Shown here one piece after another: positions 10,631 to 38,182 of a DNA stretch of 64,000 nucleotides. The first letter of the stretch is position 1. Each line of letters starts with the position of its first letter. The stretch covers positions 434,001 through 498,000 of the forward strand of contig NZ_BAAAXV010000001.1 in assembly GCF_039535785.1 (NCBI RefSeq), in the 5' to 3' direction. The notes under the pieces were generated by a model that was given only the letters and a program-made list of their open reading frames with translations, had not been told where the DNA came from and searched no databases. A program made the position numbers and the translations under genes. Source of the DNA: Nonomuraea helvata. Its GTDB lineage: Bacteria > Actinomycetota > Actinomycetes > Streptosporangiales > Streptosporangiaceae.

Positions 10631-12058
10631 ATGGAGATGAACCGTCGCCAGATGCTGGCCCTGGCGGTGGCGGCCGCGACCGCGCCCGTGCTGTCCGCCT
10701 GCGCGGACACCAGGCAGCAGAAGCAGGCCGCGGCGCCGGTCCAGTCCGGCGCCCAGCTGATCGACCCCGACCGGCCAGGCAGCGACGCCTGGCCGTTCGA
10801 GGCGGCCGAGCAGCTCAACAGCTCGCTGACCTGGCCGAAGACGAACGTGGCCGACCCGGCGTCCAAGGTGACGATCACGGTGGCGATGACCACGGACGCC
10901 GTCACCGAGGTGCGCAACGCCCAGTTCGACTTCTTCTTCAAGAAGCGCCATCCGAACATCGAGATCAAGCGCGAGTCGTCGCCCTTCGACCAGTTCCTGA
11001 CGAAGTACATGGCCCAGGCGGCCGGCGGCACGCTCCCCGACGTGCTCTACAACCACTACTCCTGGACGCAGAACCTCATCGCCAACCAGATGCTGCACCC
11101 CGTGGACGAGTACATCGCCAAGACGCCCGAGTTCGACATGGAGGACATCCCCCAGCGCGGGCTCGGCTACTTCAAGCGCGACGGCAAGCTGTACGGCCTG
11201 CCCACCGACATGGCGCCCAAGCTGCTCTTCTACAACAAGGACCTGTTCGACAAGGCCGGACTCGACTATCCGGACGAGAGCTGGACGTTCGACAAGCTCT
11301 TCGAGACGGCCAGGAAGATGACCAGCGGGTCGGGGGCGGGGAAGATCTACGGCTTCTCCCCCATGCCGGTGCCGGCCCCCGACCTCAGCGCCGTCTTCCT
11401 GATGCCGTTCGGCGGCCGGTTCCTGGACGCCTCCGAGTCCAAGGTGCTGATCAACGAGCCCAAAGCCAGGGAGGCCATGGGGCGCTGGCTGGACCTGCTG
11501 CTCAAGGACAAGGCGGTGCCGAGCCTGGCCGAGCTGCAGCTGCTGGAGAAGGTGGACCCGTTCAAGACCGGGCACGCGGCCATGCTGATCAACGGCGCCT
11601 GGCTGATGCTGGAGCTGTCCAAGCAGAAGGCGTTCAAGTGGGGCGCCACGCACGTGCCCAAGGGCCCCGACGGCCGCTTCACCCCGGCCGTGGGCAGCGC
11701 GCTGGTGATGACGGCCGCGTCGAAGAACAAGGACGCCGCCTGGCTCTACATGCACGAGTTCCTGTCGTCCTCGGGCTACAAGTTCCGCCAGATCACCTCG
11801 CCCGCCCGGCAGTCCGCCTGGGACGCCAACGCCAAGGCCGTCGGCATCCCCGCGGAGACGGCGAAGCTGGTCAAGGACGTCCTGGCCGACTACGCCTCCG
11901 ACGACGGCGTGCTGCGGCTGCCGGCCAACAAGAAGGTCGTCGACACGGCCAAGCCCATCTGGGAACGCGCGATGCTCGGCAAGATCAGCGTGGACGACGC
12001 GCTGAAGGAGATCGCCGACAAGGTCACCCCCATACTGGCCGAGAACAAGATCGCATGA
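10631..12058 (+). CDS. sugar ABC transporter substrate-binding lipoprotein
   Basis: The 475-residue product has a lipoprotein signal with twin-Arg-like start (MEMNRRQMLALAVAAATAP) and lipobox LSAC around residue 24, then the type-1 extracellular solute-binding fold (FFFKKRHPNIEIKRE, DVLYNHYSW, GKLYGLPTDMAPKLLFYNKD). It should bind an oligosaccharide outside the cell and deliver it to the two permeases encoded next. An SD-like GAGGCC precedes ATG 10631, and the stop overlaps the next start (ATGA). No ATPase gene is present, so a shared MsiK-type ATPase is expected, as is usual in actinobacteria. Confidence 0.9.
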   Translation: MEMNRRQMLALAVAAATAPVLSACADTRQQKQAAAPVQSGAQLIDPDRPGSDAWPFEAAEQLNSSLTWPKTNVADPASKVTITVAMTTDAVTEVRNAQFDFFFKKRHPNIEIKRESSPFDQFLTKYMAQAAGGTLPDVLYNHYSWTQNLIANQMLHPVDEYIAKTPEFDMEDIPQRGLGYFKRDGKLYGLPTDMAPKLLFYNKDLFDKAGLDYPDESWTFDKLFETARKMTSGSGAGKIYGFSPMPVPAPDLSAVFLMPFGGRFLDASESKVLINEPKAREAMGRWLDLLLKDKAVPSLAELQLLEKVDPFKTGHAAMLINGAWLMLELSKQKAFKWGATHVPKGPDGRFTPAVGSALVMTAASKNKDAAWLYMHEFLSSSGYKFRQITSPARQSAWDANAKAVGIPAETAKLVKDVLADYASDDGVLRLPANKKVVDTAKPIWERAMLGKISVDDALKEIADKVTPILAENKIA

Positions 12059-12954
12059 CCGCCGTCAGCGTTCCCACCCCGCTGGCACGCCGCGAGGCGC
12101 GCCGCTTCCACCTGTTCGTCTCGCCGTGGGTGGTCGGGTTCGTGCTCTTCAGCGCGGGCCCGATCCTCGCCGCCATCGTGCTGAGCTTCATACAGTGGAA
12201 CCTCCTGCAGGCGCCGAAGTGGGTGGGTTTCGCCAACTACGTACGCATGGTCAACGACCCCGAGTTCTGGGAGTCGATCGGCAACACCGTGGAGTACGGC
12301 CTCGGCTCGGTGGCGCTCGGGGTGACGTTCACGTTCCTGCTGGCGCTGCTGCTCAACCAGCCGCTGCGCTTCCAGGGCCTGTTCCGCACCGTGATGTACC
12401 TGCCCTCGGTGGTCTCGGGCCTGGCCACGGCGCTGCTCTGGCTGAACATCCTGCACCCCGACTACGGGCTGATCAACAAGGTGCTGGCGTCGTTCGGCAT
12501 CCAGGGTCCCGGCTGGCTGGCCTCGCAGGAGTGGGCCATCCCCGGGCTCGTGCTGATGAGCGTGTGGGGGGCGGGCAACACGATCGTCATCTACCTGGCC
12601 GGGCTGCAGGGCATCCCGAGGACGCTGTACGAGGCCGCCGAGATCGACGGGGCGGGGTGGTGGCGCCGGTTCTGGAGCGTGACCGTGCCCATGATGTCGC
12701 CGGTCATCTTCTTCAACGTGGTGACCGGGTTCATCGCGGCGCTGCAGAGTTACGTGCTCATCCTCGTCATGACCGAGGGCGGTCCCGGAAACGCGACGAT
12801 GGTGCTGGGGCTCTACATCTACCGGCACGCGTTCGTCTACTTCGACATGGGCTACGCGGCCACGCTGTCGTGGGCGATGTTCGTGCTGGTCATCGCCGTG
12901 ACCGCGATCCAGTTCAGCCTGGCCGGGCGCTGGGTGCACTACGAGTTCAAGTGA
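12055..12954 (+). CDS. sugar ABC transporter permease (MalF/UgpA type)
   Basis: The 299-residue protein has six predicted membrane helices and the cytoplasmic EAA loop EAAEIDGAGWWRRFW near residue 200, which contacts the ATPase. An N-terminal FHLFVSPWVVGFVLFSAGP helix is typical of MalF-type CUT1 permeases. The ATG overlaps the SBP stop by four bases, and the second permease follows after 8 nt, so the three form one transporter. Confidence 0.92.
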   Translation: MTAVSVPTPLARREARRFHLFVSPWVVGFVLFSAGPILAAIVLSFIQWNLLQAPKWVGFANYVRMVNDPEFWESIGNTVEYGLGSVALGVTFTFLLALLLNQPLRFQGLFRTVMYLPSVVSGLATALLWLNILHPDYGLINKVLASFGIQGPGWLASQEWAIPGLVLMSVWGAGNTIVIYLAGLQGIPRTLYEAAEIDGAGWWRRFWSVTVPMMSPVIFFNVVTGFIAALQSYVLILVMTEGGPGNATMVLGLYIYRHAFVYFDMGYAATLSWAMFVLVIAVTAIQFSLAGRWVHYEFK

Positions 12955-12962
12955 GGTCGCCG

Positions 12963-13868
12963 ATGCTCGTCGAGACCGCGGTCAAGCCCGCGCGCCCCAC
13001 CAGGCCGGGCACGTCCCTGACCTCGGAGCAGGCCGAGCGCGTCAGGAGGGTCCGGCGCTCCGGCGCGTACATCCTGCTGGCCATCAGCTCGGCGGTGTTC
13101 CTGCTGCCGTTCCTGTGGATGGTGACGACCTCGCTCAAGTCGGACGCCGCGAACCTGGCCTTCCCGCCGCAGTGGCTGCCCGACTCCTTCAACTTCGACA
13201 ACTACCTCAAGGGCTGGACCGGGTCGCTGCCGTTCAACCGCTTCCTGCTGAACACCATCGTGATCACCGCGCTGTCCATGGCGGGCAACCTGATCTCGTG
13301 CATCCTGCCCGCGTACGCGTTCGCCAGGCTGCGGGCGCGGGCGGCGGGCGTCATGTTCGCGGCGCTGCTGGCGACCATGATGATCCCGCGCGAGATCACG
13401 CTGGTGCCGAAGTTCGTGATGTTCTCCAAGCTCGGCTGGGTCGACACGTACCTGCCGCTGATCGTGCCGGAGTTCTTCGGCGTCGCGCTCTACATCTTCC
13501 TGCTGCGCCAGTTCTTCACCACGATCCCGCAGGAGCTCATCGACGCCGCCCGCATCGACGGGGCCTCGGAGCTGCGCATCCTGTGGAGCGTCATGCTCCC
13601 GCTGGCCAAGCCCGCGATCGCGGCGATCTGCCTGTTCTCCTTCGTCGCCAACTGGAACCAGTACCTGGAGAACTCGATCTATCTGCGGTCGATGGAGAAG
13701 ATCACCCTCGCGCAGGGGCTCGGCATGTTCAACGGTCAGTACGTGACCCAGTACAACCAGATGATGGCCGTCGCGCTGGTGTCAATGCTGCCCATCCTTA
13801 TCATCTTTTTCCTGGCACAGAAGACGTTCATCCGGGGAGTCACGCTCACCGGAATCGCAGGAAGGTAA
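12963..13868 (+). CDS. sugar ABC transporter permease (MalG/UgpE type)
   Basis: The 301-residue product has six helices and the EAA motif IDAARIDGASELRI. GAGG precedes ATG 12963. The last 120 bp (from 13747) are part of a 166-bp direct repeat; within it the codons CTT ATC ATC TTT TTC are poorer in GC than the rest of the gene, suggesting that the 3' end was exchanged by recombination. The stop at 13868 is three nt from an out-of-context copy of the aldo/keto reductase start. Confidence 0.9.
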   Translation: MLVETAVKPARPTRPGTSLTSEQAERVRRVRRSGAYILLAISSAVFLLPFLWMVTTSLKSDAANLAFPPQWLPDSFNFDNYLKGWTGSLPFNRFLLNTIVITALSMAGNLISCILPAYAFARLRARAAGVMFAALLATMMIPREITLVPKFVMFSKLGWVDTYLPLIVPEFFGVALYIFLLRQFFTTIPQELIDAARIDGASELRILWSVMLPLAKPAIAAICLFSFVANWNQYLENSIYLRSMEKITLAQGLGMFNGQYVTQYNQMMAVALVSMLPILIIFFLAQKTFIRGVTLTGIAGR

Positions 13869-13912
13869 TCGTTGGACTACCAACGTCAGCCGCACCGAAG
13901 GTGCGGCCGCAG
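13747..13912 (+). repeat. direct repeat copy 1 flanking the aminotransferase insertion
   Basis: This 166-bp segment contains the last 40 codons of the permease, its stop, and the first 13-14 codons of an aldo/keto reductase starting TTG at 13872. It matches 15256-15421 without gaps, with 9 mismatches (about 95 % identity). Beyond 13912 the reductase sequence is lost, so this copy carries only a reductase stub. Confidence 0.95.
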
Positions 13913-13973
13913 CCACATCGCGACGGCCCGCGTCCGGGGAAGCCTTGTTCCACTGTTCGAGTCTCGAGTTCGC

Positions 13974-15122
13974 TCAGGAGAGCGCGGCGATTCGCGTGAT
14001 GGCTTCGGTGAGCGTCTCTGCCGAGCAGCCGAAGTTCAGCCTGGCGTGGCCGATCCCGGTAGGGCCGTAGCGGTGTCCCGCGTTCAGGGCGACCTTGGCG
14101 GCGGCGAGGATGTGGTCGGTGGGGTCGTCGCCCCAGCCCAGGGCTCGGAAGTCGATCCAGGCCAGAAAGCCTGCCTGCGGTTGTCTGTAGCGGACGTCGG
14201 GGAGCAGCTTCACCAGCAGTTCCTCCAGCAGTTTCCTGTTGTGGTCGAGGACGGACAGGACCTCGGCGAGCCATGGGTCACCGAGGTTGAACGCGGCTAC
14301 CGTGGCGATCACTCCGAGGTGTCCGGTGCGGTAGAGCGAGTGCGGCGACAGACGGTCGACGTACCGTTTGGGCGCCGGGTCGGCGGTGATGACGGTGGCC
14401 GCTTTGAGTCCGGCCAGGTTCCAGCCCTTGCTGGCCGACAGGAACGAGAATCCCCAACGCCTCGCCTCGTCCGACACCGACAGGAACGGGACGAACTCGG
14501 CCCCAGGGAGGACGAGCGGGGCGTGGATCTCGTCGGAGAGCACGTACACGCCGTACTTGTCGGCCAATCCGGCGAGTGCGACCAGGTCCTCACGCCGGTG
14601 CACGAGGCCGACGGGGTTGTGCGGGTTGCACAGCACGTACGCCGTGACGTGGTCGGCGAACGCGCGTTCCAGGGCGTCCAGGTCGAGCTGCCATCCCTGC
14701 GGTCCTTCGGCCAGCGGCGCCTCGACGACATGGGCTCCTACCTCGCGGATCCACCAGGAGAACGGCTCGTACACCGGTGGGCTGATGGCCACGCGGTCTC
14801 CGGGGCTGACGACGCGGCGCAGGATTTCGACGATGCCGATGCCGACGTCGGTGACGGTCCGCACGTCATCGGGATCGATCTTCCAGTCCCATTCGCGCCG
14901 GGCATAGCGGCTGACCGCGTCGGCAAGGTCGCGGGTTGGTGCCGCGTAGCCGGTGTCGGACCGGTCGACCGCCTCGCGCAGAGCCTTGGCGACCGGTTCG
15001 GCCAGCGGGAAGTCCATCTCCGCGACCGGAAGGGGCAGGACGTCGTCCGGGAAGGTTCGCCATTTCGCGCTCTGGCGCTTCCTCAGTTCGGCGACAGGGG
15101 GAATGGGGAGGGCGCCCGTCAT
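13974..15122 (-). CDS. PatB/MalY-type PLP-dependent aminotransferase (probable C-S lyase)
   Basis: The 382-residue fold-type I enzyme shows LPLPVAEMDFPLAEPV near the N-terminus, CNPHNPVG, SDEIHAPLV and the PLP-lysine motif SASKGWNLAG, followed by the Arg-containing HARLNFGCS near the C-terminus. This pattern is the MalY/PatB group, which cleaves cystathionine-like C-S bonds or transaminates. ATG 15122 gives the usual family length; a longer frame to 15218 would start in the intergenic part. It is read against its neighbours, and lies inside a permease-reductase operon between two 166-bp direct repeats, so it is an insertion. A regulatory role, as for MalY on sugar genes, is possible but unsupported. 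Confidence 0.85.
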   Translation of the reverse strand: MTGALPIPPVAELRKRQSAKWRTFPDDVLPLPVAEMDFPLAEPVAKALREAVDRSDTGYAAPTRDLADAVSRYARREWDWKIDPDDVRTVTDVGIGIVEILRRVVSPGDRVAISPPVYEPFSWWIREVGAHVVEAPLAEGPQGWQLDLDALERAFADHVTAYVLCNPHNPVGLVHRREDLVALAGLADKYGVYVLSDEIHAPLVLPGAEFVPFLSVSDEARRWGFSFLSASKGWNLAGLKAATVITADPAPKRYVDRLSPHSLYRTGHLGVIATVAAFNLGDPWLAEVLSVLDHNRKLLEELLVKLLPDVRYRQPQAGFLAWIDFRALGWGDDPTDHILAAAKVALNAGHRYGPTGIGHARLNFGCSAETLTEAITRIAALS

Positions 15123-15255
15123 CGAGGCCGCCGGGGTGTTCCAAAAACCTGGTCTCGTGTCACCCCTCGATGATCGGTGCCGCAGCAGTCGTCCCGCTTC
15201 CGAGATAAAGCCAGACAATGTCGTAAATCCGCCAAGCGTCAGCGCCCTCGATGCT
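15123..15255. other. right part of the inserted segment, non-coding
   Basis: This 133-bp stretch lies between the aminotransferase start and the second direct repeat. It is less GC-rich than its surroundings, should hold the aminotransferase promoter on the minus strand, and contains no recognised terminal inverted repeat or integrase site. Confidence 0.4.
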
Positions 15256-15421
15256 CCCAGTGGAACCAGATGATGACTGTCGCGCTAGTGTCAATTTTGC
15301 CCATCCTTATCATCTTTTTCCTGGCACAGAAGACGTTCATCCGGGGAGTCACGCTCACCGGAATCGCAGGAAGGTAATCGTTGGACTACGAACGTCAGCC
15401 GTACCGAAGGTGCGGCCGCAG
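15256..15421 (+). repeat. direct repeat copy 2 flanking the aminotransferase insertion
   Basis: This copy matches 13747-13912. It carries an orphan permease tail (NQMMTVALVSILPILIIFF to the stop at 15377) and runs straight into the complete aldo/keto reductase gene. Each repeat thus keeps one intact gene and one stub. Confidence 0.95.
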
Positions 15422-16355
15422 TGGCCTTCTCCTCCCCGCCGTGTCGCTCGGCCTGTGGCACAACTTCGGCGGCGGCAAATCTCTCGACAGCCAGCGCGCC
15501 ATCTTCAACAAGGCGCTCGACCTCGGCATCACGCACTTCGACATCGCCGACCGCTACGGCCCGCCGCTCGGCGCCGCGGAGGAGACGTTCAACCGGCTGC
15601 TGCCACGGTCGCTGCGCGACGAGGTGGTCGTCACCACCAAGGGCAGCAACCCGATGTGGGACGGCCCGTACGGCAAGGGCAACTCACGCAAGCACCTGCT
15701 CGCCACGCTCGAGCGGTCGCTGGGGCGGCTCGGCCTCGACTACGTGGACATCTTCTACCTGCACCGCGACGACGAGGACACGCCGCTGGAAGAGCAGGCG
15801 GCCACGCTCGACCACATGGTCCGCACGGGGCGCGCCCTGTACGTGGGCGTGTCCAACTTCTCGCCCGAGCGCACCGCGCAGATCGCCCGGCTGCTGCGCG
15901 ACCTCGGCACCCCGCTGCTGATCCACCAGCCCTCCTACTCGCTGCTCAAGCGGCAGATCGAGCGCGGCCTGCTGGGCGTGCTCGAGCAGGAGGGCGTCGG
16001 CTGCGTGGTCTACTCGCCGCTGGCCCAGGGCCTGCTCACCGACCGCTACCTCGAGGGCATCCCCGCCGACTCGCGGGCAGCGGAAGGGCGCTTCCTCACG
16101 CCCGACCGGGTCACGCCTGAGGTGCTGACGTTCGTGCGGGCGCTCGCGGAGCTGGCCTCCTCCCGCGGGCAGACGGTGGCCCAGCTCTCCCTGGCCTGGG
16201 CGCTCAGGGACCCGCGCATCACCTCGGTACTGGTCGGCGCCTCCAGCCCCGAGCAGCTCGAGGCGAACGTGGCCGCCGTGGACCGGCTCGACTTCACCGA
16301 GGACGAGCTGGCGACCATCGACCGCGCCGCCAAGGAGGCGGGCATCGAGGCATAG
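15381..16355 (+). CDS. aldo/keto reductase
   Basis: The 324-residue protein starts at TTG 15381, preceded by AGGAAGG at proper spacing. It has the AKR (beta/alpha)8 motifs: FDIADRYGPPLGAAEE with the catalytic Asp/Tyr pair, the Lys in VVTTKGS, DIFYLHRDD with the catalytic His, YVGVSNFS, and a C-terminal NADPH-binding stretch SVLVGASSPEQL. It resembles the YghZ/potassium-channel-beta group that reduces sugar aldehydes. Originally it was probably the fourth gene of the importer operon (three nt after the permease stop); now an antisense gene lies between, so its transcription may depend on read-through or a new promoter. Confidence 0.88.
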   Translation: MDYERQPYRRCGRSGLLLPAVSLGLWHNFGGGKSLDSQRAIFNKALDLGITHFDIADRYGPPLGAAEETFNRLLPRSLRDEVVVTTKGSNPMWDGPYGKGNSRKHLLATLERSLGRLGLDYVDIFYLHRDDEDTPLEEQAATLDHMVRTGRALYVGVSNFSPERTAQIARLLRDLGTPLLIHQPSYSLLKRQIERGLLGVLEQEGVGCVVYSPLAQGLLTDRYLEGIPADSRAAEGRFLTPDRVTPEVLTFVRALAELASSRGQTVAQLSLAWALRDPRITSVLVGASSPEQLEANVAAVDRLDFTEDELATIDRAAKEAGIEA

Positions 16356-36400: not shown

Positions 36401-38182
36401 TCACGCCGGGCGCCCGCCGTCACGCACGGGCAGCGCCGCCTCGAGCCGGTAATGGCCGTCCCGCGACGCGGTCGTGAGGCGGCCGCCGCGGGCGGCGAGG
36501 CGCTCGGCGAGATTGGCGATCCCCTGGCCGGGTTCGGCGGTGCGGCCGGTCACGCCGTCGCCGGTCACGCCGTCGCCAGTCACGCCGTCGCCAGTCACGC
36601 CGTCGCCAGTCACGCCGTCGCCGGTCACGCCGTCGTTGGTCAGGCGGAGGCGTACCTGGTCGTCGGCGGCTGACAGGGCGATCGTCACGTGGCGTGCCTG
36701 GCTGTGCCGCAGCACGTTGGTGACGGCCTCGCGGACCACGACGGCGAGCAGGGCGTCGTCGGCCTCCTCCGGCACGGGTCCGGCGTCGATCAGGACCGTC
36801 GCGCCGGAGGCCTCGAGGACTTCGCGCGCGGAGTCGAGCTCCGACCGCAGCCGCAGCGCGGGCTCGCGCTCGCCGGGGATGGCACGCAGGTCGGCGAGGG
36901 CGTCGCGGGCCACGGTGACGATGCCGGCCAGCTCGGCCTCGGCACGGGCCGGGTCGCGGGCGGCCAGCTCGGCCTTGACGGTGATCGCGGACAGGCAGTA
37001 GCCGATCAGGTCGTGCACGTCCTGGGCGATCCTGCGCCGCTCCCGAGCCGCGGCCAGCCCGGCGAGCGCGAGCCGCGACTCGCGCACCTGGTAGACCAGC
37101 CGGGTCACCGCGGTCAGCCCGTAGAACATCGCCGACATGCCCGCCACCTCCTGCAGGGCGGCCGGCACGCCCGCGGGCGAGCCGTACCGGATGATGAGCA
37201 CGATCGGCACGCTGCCCACCACGACCGCGTAGAGCGCCCACGCGAGCCGCCACGAGGGGATCACGATCAGCAGCGCGGCGGCGGCCCACCCGACCAGCTG
37301 GTAGTACGGGCGGTGCGGCTCGAGCAGCGGCAGCCACGCGATCACCAGCTGGGCGGGCAGCGTCCAGGCGGCGTGCCGCGGCCACGTGCCGGGAGGGCGC
37401 GGCAGCGCGTGGTACGCCTGCAGGCCGACGACCGCGATGACCGCGGCCCAGTACGCCACCCGCAGCCCGACCGGCACCTGCGCGCGGGCCACGACGATGA
37501 TCGCGGCGACCGGGACCCACAGGTAGACGACCGTCAGGATGGGCACCGCGAGGCGCGGGGTCAGATCGCCGGCCGGCGGCATGGGCGCCGGCTCGGGTCG
37601 CCGCCTGGCCTGCTGCGCGGCCTGCCGGGTCAGCGGCGGGATCTCCGCGGCGCGCCCGGCGGCGGCCAGCCCGATGACGCCGGACAGCGCGGAGCCGAGC
37701 ACGGCCTCCAGGGTGTGACCGGCCCGCTCGCGCTCCTCGGCCACCGTCTGGGCGGCCAGTTCGGCCCGGGTGGCGTGCAGCTCGTCGCGCAGATCGCTGA
37801 GCCGGGTGAGGGCGAAGACGACCAGCCCCTGCGTGGCCGTGTTGCCGACGGCGTTCACCCAGACGTAGGGGTCGGCGCCGAGGTTCAGCAGGCCCGCGGC
37901 GGCTGCCACGCAGGTGAAGAGCGCCCAGCGCACCGGGCCGCGCGCGACCAGCAGCGCGGAGGCGGCGAAGAACGCCGACGGGCCGCCGAACGGCACCGGC
38001 CCCGCCCAGGCGAACAGCACCGCCTGTCCCGCCACCAGCCACCAGCCCCGCAGCCGCCTGGTCCGCGGTAACGAGCACAGGACCTGCAGGCCGAGGGAGA
38101 GCAGGGCCGGCACGCCCGGCAGGCCGCCCGTCGCGGGGATCGTGAGGAGGACGAGCACCACCAGGATGATGAGCGTGGACAC
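36401..38182 (-). CDS. membrane sensor histidine kinase (HisKA_3 type) with internal VTGDG repeat
   Basis: The 593-residue protein has two blocks of membrane helices (about 1-125 and 210-360). The DHp box is ERRRIAQDVHDLIGYCLSAI with His390, followed by VREAVTNVLRHSQA (N box) and GQGIANLAERL (G box). Between the N and G boxes six VTGDG pentapeptides lengthen the ATP-lid region (DNA repeat 36549-36638). Residues about 148-172 (AEERERAGHTLEAV) look like a decayed second DHp helix, suggesting an internal duplication. It probably works with the response regulator at 40241 although a hydrolase gene separates them. Start GTG 38182 has GGGGAAC upstream. Confidence 0.85.
   Translation of the reverse strand: MSTLIILVVLVLLTIPATGGLPGVPALLSLGLQVLCSLPRTRRLRGWWLVAGQAVLFAWAGPVPFGGPSAFFAASALLVARGPVRWALFTCVAAAAGLLNLGADPYVWVNAVGNTATQGLVVFALTRLSDLRDELHATRAELAAQTVAEERERAGHTLEAVLGSALSGVIGLAAAGRAAEIPPLTRQAAQQARRRPEPAPMPPAGDLTPRLAVPILTVVYLWVPVAAIIVVARAQVPVGLRVAYWAAVIAVVGLQAYHALPRPPGTWPRHAAWTLPAQLVIAWLPLLEPHRPYYQLVGWAAAALLIVIPSWRLAWALYAVVVGSVPIVLIIRYGSPAGVPAALQEVAGMSAMFYGLTAVTRLVYQVRESRLALAGLAAARERRRIAQDVHDLIGYCLSAITVKAELAARDPARAEAELAGIVTVARDALADLRAIPGEREPALRLRSELDSAREVLEASGATVLIDAGPVPEEADDALLAVVVREAVTNVLRHSQARHVTIALSAADDQVRLRLTNDGVTGDGVTGDGVTGDGVTGDGVTGDGVTGRTAEPGQGIANLAERLAARGGRLTTASRDGHYRLEAALPVRDGGRPA
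36549..36638 (-). repeat. 15-bp tandem repeat inside the histidine kinase gene
   Basis: Six consecutive 15-bp units (GTCACGCCGTCGCC plus G or A on the plus strand; the last unit is variant) encode VTGDG repeats without disturbing the frame. Unit length is a multiple of three, so copy-number change would alter the lid length and not the frame. Confidence 0.95.

Follow-up and report, generated by a model that had tools for sequence, protein, structure and literature searches.

A PatB/MalY-like gene between duplicated copies of a gene junction in a predicted sugar-uptake operon of Nonomuraea helvata

Results and Discussion

Genes and repeats at the locus

The stretch of DNA examined in this study (the window) comprises 64,000 nucleotides of the 11.26-Mb Nonomuraea helvata genome, positions 434001-498000 of contig C1. 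Part of the window is occupied by an operon predicted to serve sugar uptake through an ABC importer. On its plus strand, genes for a predicted solute-binding protein (10631..12058; PF01547, E 2e-33) and a first permease (12055..12954; PF00528, E 1e-17) are followed by an intact gene for a second permease (12963..13868), whose NCBIfam matches of the UgpE, GlcU and MalG types all fall below their cut-offs and which has no Pfam match at 0.001. Farther downstream on the same strand lies a gene for an aldo/keto reductase (15381..16355; PF00248, E 4e-72), with an intact frame and a TTG start. Two direct repeats of 166 bp, both read on the plus strand, mark the region between these genes. The left repeat (13747..13912) consists of the 3' end of the second permease gene and the first 41 bp of the reductase gene, the latter as a dead fragment, and is continuous with the permease gene at 12963-13868. 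The right repeat (15256..15421) consists of a dead permease 3' fragment and the reductase start, and is continuous with the reductase gene at 15381-16355. The repeats are spaced 1,509 bp apart and align without gaps, with 157 of 166 positions identical (5.4% apart), and the pairwise BLAST E value of 1e-72 between them indicates that their similarity is not due to chance. A preliminary description of this DNA had reported an aminotransferase gene between 166-bp direct repeats with nine mismatches and no gaps, which was reproduced when the repeats were recomputed, and had seen a permease 3' end and a reductase 5' end in each repeat, with which both the coordinates and the alignments of relatives agree. 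That the duplication arose during assembly is scarcely credible, as the two repeats differ at nine sites, the insert is located inside a 3.38-Mb contig, and the assembly consists of only 12 contigs with 100% completeness and 0.76% contamination.

The reductase had also been described as cut off from its operon, which holds for its position, now 1.5 kb further downstream and behind an opposing gene, but not for the gene itself. A predicted ribosome-binding site (GGAAGG) and the TTG start are both retained inside the right repeat, so the reading frame of the reductase is whole, and the permease retains its own stop codon. Judging from the reading frames, both proteins remain encoded after the insertion. 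Promoter and terminator scans, which are weak tests at such GC content, gave no match between 13.6 and 15.6 kb. From the truncated start of the reductase in the left repeat, a frame of 433 codons (13872-15173) extends antisense to the enclosed gene; this frame is probably a meaningless artefact of high GC content. Elsewhere in the window, a tandem repeat of three near-identical copies with a 114-bp period is found at 2362-2712, and a short tandem array with a 15-bp period (unit GCC[G/A]GTCACGCCGTC) at 36530-36664.

The inserted gene

The 1,343 bp between the repeats (13913..15255), referred to here as the insert, contain one gene, which is intact and encodes a protein of 382 aa on the minus strand (13974..15122). 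The protein passes the Pfam gathering cut-off for the aminotransferase class I/II fold (PF00155; E 1e-34, 120.6 bits versus 19.7), while its best NCBIfam model, the PatB C-S lyase TIGR04350, was matched at 298.2 bits, below the curated cut-off of 340. The top-scoring solved chain carries the name cystathionine beta-lyase PatB, and the segment SASKGWNLAG resembles the PLP-lysine site. By similarity, the cargo gene can be classed as encoding a PatB/MalY-like PLP enzyme; at such similarity, it is present as a single copy in the 11.26-Mb genome. Compared to three homologues from another genus of the same family (genomes G122, G172 and G233), it has a dN/dS of 0.22-0.25, and the codons changed in the window's copy alone include 23 silent and 8 replacing changes, a count in which the time before transfer is included. 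These values indicate that the cargo gene is under purifying selection.

No transposase, integrase or other mobility gene was identified in the insert, a repeat search of the window found no terminal or inverted repeats at its ends, and no tRNA is present within window positions 10-20 kb. An insertion linked to a tRNA was rejected on the latter ground, and also because the repeats are situated in protein-coding genes. These results agree with the preliminary description, which had seen neither a transposase nor a terminal repeat. Integrated elements are flanked by direct repeats and often restore the end of a gene, and the locus could in principle represent a mobile element, placed by site-specific recombination or transposition, of which the cargo alone remains. 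However, in addition to the missing integrase or transposase, terminal inverted repeats and tRNA, the repeat duplicates the ends of both genes rather than one, and the ends of the fragment are arbitrary when compared to G172 (see below). This explanation is therefore considered very improbable.

The empty site in relatives

A total of 54 genomes of the genus, including that of N. helvata, were searched, and 15 loci at the operon site were compared; further genomes with a permease match, such as G013, G023 and G039, lie outside this 15-locus set. Twelve of the 15 loci contain a single junction. In ten genomes (G002, G022, G030, G020, G005, G043, G001, G015, G051 and G040) this junction joins permease and reductase, while in G042 and G050 it is followed by the contig end. 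The other three (G006, G045 and G046) contain the permease with no reductase beside it. The insert was found at none of the 15 loci. Given the single junction at 12 of them, the inserted state is the derived one. The comparison with relatives lacking the unit, which the preliminary description had suggested, thus favours an empty ancestral site, and an ancestral aminotransferase gene without repeats, which would have spoken for the opposite, was not found at any of the 15 relatives' loci.

No tandem junction was observed among the relatives compared, which bears on a route in two steps, whereby the junction was first duplicated in tandem and a foreign fragment entered between the copies later. 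Tandem duplications are common in bacteria, and this route would end in the same structure. It would, however, require the insertion to hit the boundary between the copies, and each of the three like loci described below would require both steps; together with the absence of a tandem intermediate in the relatives compared, this makes the two-step route quite improbable.

The nearest relatives, G002 and G022, are approximately 95% identical to the window over the permease end, with a dS of 0.13 for the permease and 0.20 for the reductase. If the dead fragments accumulate changes roughly as fast as silent sites do, the divergence of approximately 5% between the repeats, set against a dS of 0.13-0.20, would place the insertion after the split from G002, a date that agrees with the empty sites. 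Reversion through recombination between the repeats is possible in principle; however, since the repeats are 5.4% apart and the cargo gene is under purifying selection, the inserted state has lasted.

Origin of the insert

At E <= 1e-60, the cargo protein was found in 15 of the 54 genomes of the genus (own genome included). Within the genus only G029 contains a close match (84%), with all others at 51% or less, and the G029 copy is located at a different locus, where it adjoins an AraC-type gene that passes Pfam cut-offs. In another genus of the same family, 4 of the 16 genomes searched had matches, three of them close (G122, G172 and G233), with 88-89% DNA identity across the gene. The similarity to these three genomes extends beyond the gene, as a block at 15151..15237 is homologous, at 77-84%, to the region with the divergent promoter that precedes their copies. 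Approximately 150 bp between the gene start and this upstream block are absent from the window relative to G122, G172 and G233, and G029 is likewise without most of that stretch. In G172, a divergent AraC-type gene, whose NCBIfam matches fall below cut-offs, starts at the base matching window position 15218, and in the window the start of such a donor-type gene (15218..15255, plus strand, beginning ATG TCG TAA) is cut off by the right repeat. Homology to donor-type upstream DNA was detected as far as 15237, short of the start of the right repeat at 15256. Since the insert contains one gene, a divergent promoter and the very start of a neighbouring gene, it is an arbitrary fragment, and when compared to G172 its ends coincide with no gene or element boundary. 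Judging from these homologues and from the empty sites, the insert is evidently foreign DNA.

Among the matches listed, named proteins of 81-88% identity are scattered over Streptosporangium, Streptomyces and Nonomuraea. In a protein tree of 24 sequences chosen from at least 120 matches, the window's copy belonged to no supported clade and the two Nonomuraea copies were not joined. In a plasmid collection, portions of the insert were matched at 60-80% by seven records, and the repeat by one stretch of 53 bp; a phage collection contained two short matches. The whole unit was present in no plasmid or phage record of the collections searched, and no donor with the cargo gene joined to the same junction was identified among the genomes and records searched, which were limited sets.

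Differences between the two repeats

The nine mismatches are located at repeat positions 7, 8, 21, 23, 32, 41, 42, 135 and 147. Seven of them thus fall within the first 42 positions and the other two at 135 and 147, so that 92 consecutive bp between them are free of differences (P = 0.005 if the nine differences were random). The right-copy bases at positions 7, 8, 21, 41 and 42 are matched by none of the 15 relatives, while at position 23 the right copy agrees with G002 only, and at position 32 it has the state of G002 and G022. Read by codon, the right-copy changes at positions 7, 8, 21, 23, 41 and 42 correspond to Y to W, A to T and M to I. At position 135 the left-copy state is found in G050 too, and at position 147 it is the left copy, here part of the dead reductase fragment, that departs from the aligned relatives. 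The base unlike that of the relatives is thus in the dead fragment at positions 7, 8, 21, 41, 42 and 147, a rule to which positions 23, 32 and 135 are exceptions. The repeats also have in common an A at 13784, 13817 and 13838 and at the counterparts of these positions, which none of the 15 relatives have. These three private bases indicate that both copies came from the host lineage or were made alike within it.

We read this pattern as that of repeats that may have been homogenised in the middle by gene conversion, which cannot reach the edges. Gene conversion from the drifting right copy into the functional permease was not reflected in an excess of lineage changes within the duplicated portion of that gene (4/80 versus 30/747 sites, P = 0.56; 12 relatives), nor were window-unique changes in excess there (2/80 versus 4/747, P = 0.11; 12 relatives). 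The clustering of the differences is therefore the only argument for a homogenised middle.

The same differences bear on the origin proposed in the preliminary description, namely the integration, through a single crossover of the Campbell type, of a circle carrying the gene and a copy of the junction. Such an event yields exactly the observed structure, and a circle model has been drawn for direct repeats around moved genes in Arabidopsis (PMC2869330). In addition, the permease part of the right copy is unlike all 15 relatives at positions 7, 8, 21, 41 and 42, as the junction of a diverged donor could be, although drift also explains these changes. However, with three bases that are common to both repeats and occur in none of the 15 relatives, the donor junction would need to be of the same lineage, and the problem is moved back one step. 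Differences between host and donor should also be spread along the repeat, yet its 92-bp middle is identical, and conversion would be needed as well. Furthermore, the cargo copies in G172 and G029 have an AraC-type gene rather than this operon as their neighbour, and the plasmid and phage records searched do not contain the unit. Integration of a circle is accordingly disfavoured and regarded as unlikely.

Proposed mechanism

From these observations we infer break repair as the cause of the insertion, and we consider it probable, at roughly 60%, that a foreign piece of 1,343 bp was inserted by integrase-free break repair in which the target was copied to either side of the piece. The process would have started with a break, or with two nicks approximately 166 bp apart, at the permease-reductase junction, where a stray linear fragment of foreign DNA would have been joined in, and fill-in or template switching would have left the junction on both sides of it. 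Ku-type end joining is one candidate machine for the joining, and the genome contains one Ku gene. Subsequent conversion between the two repeats would preserve the identity of their middle, and changes would accumulate in the outer parts that are dead. No targeting would be needed, as a duplication spanning a stop codon and the next start would leave both genes whole; insertions that duplicate a whole gene-to-gene junction may persist because neither gene is broken. In Streptomyces ambofaciens, the repair of induced breaks left fragments between 30 bp and 18.8 kb long in the scars; these were DNA of the organism's own genome, and the authors speculate on exogenous DNA (PMC5869714).

Further loci in the same genome

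A joined stretch of 2,058,000 bases of contig C1 (1-2,058,000) was scanned for ungapped direct repeats, with settings that varied between scans. Seven rows were obtained in the first 858 kb and 18 in 1.658 Mb, while looser settings gave 23 rows for positions 1-1,660,000 and 13 for positions 1,640,001-2,058,000, with one row in both. Three repeat pairs, including that of the window, were counted as insertion-like, a number that is a minimum for the 2.06-Mb stretch and not a rate. A 400-kb stretch of G002 gave one row, of 70 bp.

The repeats of the second locus (C1:348538-348711 and 353378-353552) are identical in 170 of 175 columns and enclose approximately 4.7 kb at 59% GC, compared to 73% in the surroundings. 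The left copy combines the 3' end of a gene for an FAD/Fe-S oxidase with 98 bp from the upstream region and the start of a sigma-factor gene, and the right copy a broken oxidase fragment with the intact sigma-factor gene. Again the differences are at the edges (columns 7, 29, 30, 37 and 172), with a clean run of 134 (P = 0.004). The insert is a patchwork that includes an XRE-type regulator and a 2'-5' RNA ligase-like gene (78% in G032), a 0.6-kb block that is 83% identical to another place in the same genome, and a PCMT-type methyltransferase (88% in G043). No empty site was found for this locus, the oxidase and sigma-factor genes being far apart in G022 and G002.

The repeats of the third locus (C1:1453805-1454051 and 1455134-1455381; 249 columns, 85% identical) cover a portion of the 3' end of a gene for a PucR-type regulator and enclose an insert of 64.7% GC, with a 322-aa gene that belongs to no Pfam family. 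Their differences are unevenly distributed too (KS P = 0.002). In G018, G036, G049 and G044, the regulator and the gene after it are connected through one copy of the PucR 3' end, with matches that overlap by 271-274 bp, and G027 and G047 resemble this empty state, as judged by the search table only. The 322-aa gene is absent from G018, G036, G049, G044, G022 and G002 and present in G030 and G046, so this insertion is older. Beside the 322-aa gene, G030 carries a regulator fragment of 219 bp up to position 1455486 and G046 one of 144 bp, corresponding to 1455522-1455665; since these are other stretches of the regulator, the duplication was longer at first and is now a remnant. The three loci vary in repeat length and cargo, and they need not have one common cause.

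Several other repeat pairs were rejected as insertion scars. The left copy of the pair at 1806086/1807696 sits in a gene that is whole in relatives. In the region C1:1806086-1807848, 155 bp of an intact gene recur at 93% identity in a broken-frame patch 1.6 kb downstream, and this copy looks like the remnant of a paralogue. The pair at 1668903/1670402 represents tandem paralogues (C1:1668903-1671116; kinase-like by eye) that are 84% identical overall, with a near-identical middle of approximately 200 bp, as local gene conversion would leave. The 1236513 pair also consists of paralogues, while the pairs at 891663 and 894649 are gene remnants, and those at 550k, 573k and 599k were judged by sequence to be repeated domains inside genes.

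Significance and comparison with known systems

The locus itself is real, derived and ordinary in its parts, although uncommon as a readable scar, and the recurrence of like loci in one genome is the most interesting part of these results. Since most insertions leave no trace behind, it is difficult to observe how single genes that lack mobility functions enter bacterial chromosomes. Long duplications of the target, on the other hand, form a scar that can be read, as they mark the empty site, the ends of the fragment and a rule of survival, namely that both neighbours are kept. As a tentative generalisation, which is possible but speculative, gene capture without a recombinase may recur in this actinobacterial group, copying approximately 150-250 bp or more of a junction around a random foreign fragment, with operons that gain genes and lose none; long target duplication would then be a general route of transfer rather than a habit of restriction-modification systems. 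With three loci in approximately 2 Mb, and with sequenced relatives, the frequency of this route, its donors and the chemistry of its joints would become measurable.

The founding paper on insertion with long target duplication is said to be that of Nobusato et al. in 2000 (Gene 259:99). The duplications in such insertions are long and variable and frequently accompany restriction-modification genes (PMC1643837, PMC4978471, PMC3031569, PMC3154945), and more than half of the papers listed on the subject deal, by title and opening of the abstract, with Helicobacter pylori or restriction-modification enzymes. No report of this type of insertion in actinobacteria was found among the open-access papers searched. 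As in the cases described there, relatives (12 of the 15 compared) hold the target once and none of the 15 has the gene at the site, two long direct copies flank the insert, and the locus has no transposon signature. Restriction-modification cargo is frequent, though not defining, in long target duplication, of which H. pylori provides an example, whereas the cargo here is a PatB/MalY-like gene and the host an actinobacterium.

There are several other systems with which the locus can be compared. The break repair described in S. ambofaciens likewise concerns an actinobacterium in which stray pieces are found at repaired breaks; however, the pieces there came from its own genome, and long target copies on both sides are not described in the available text of that study (PMC5869714). 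In homology-facilitated illegitimate recombination, foreign DNA enters via one homologous and one illegitimate joint and, according to the available portions of the reports, requires a homologous anchor on the incoming DNA (PMC3240628, PMC2884548), which was not seen in the cargo homologues. Transposed genes of Arabidopsis are also single genes bordered by direct repeats, which correspond to the target site in a relative, and a circle is among the models discussed for them, but this case differs in that it concerns a eukaryote and movement within one genome (PMC2869330). The locus in N. helvata has the structural features of insertion with long target duplication, with a different cargo and in a different host.
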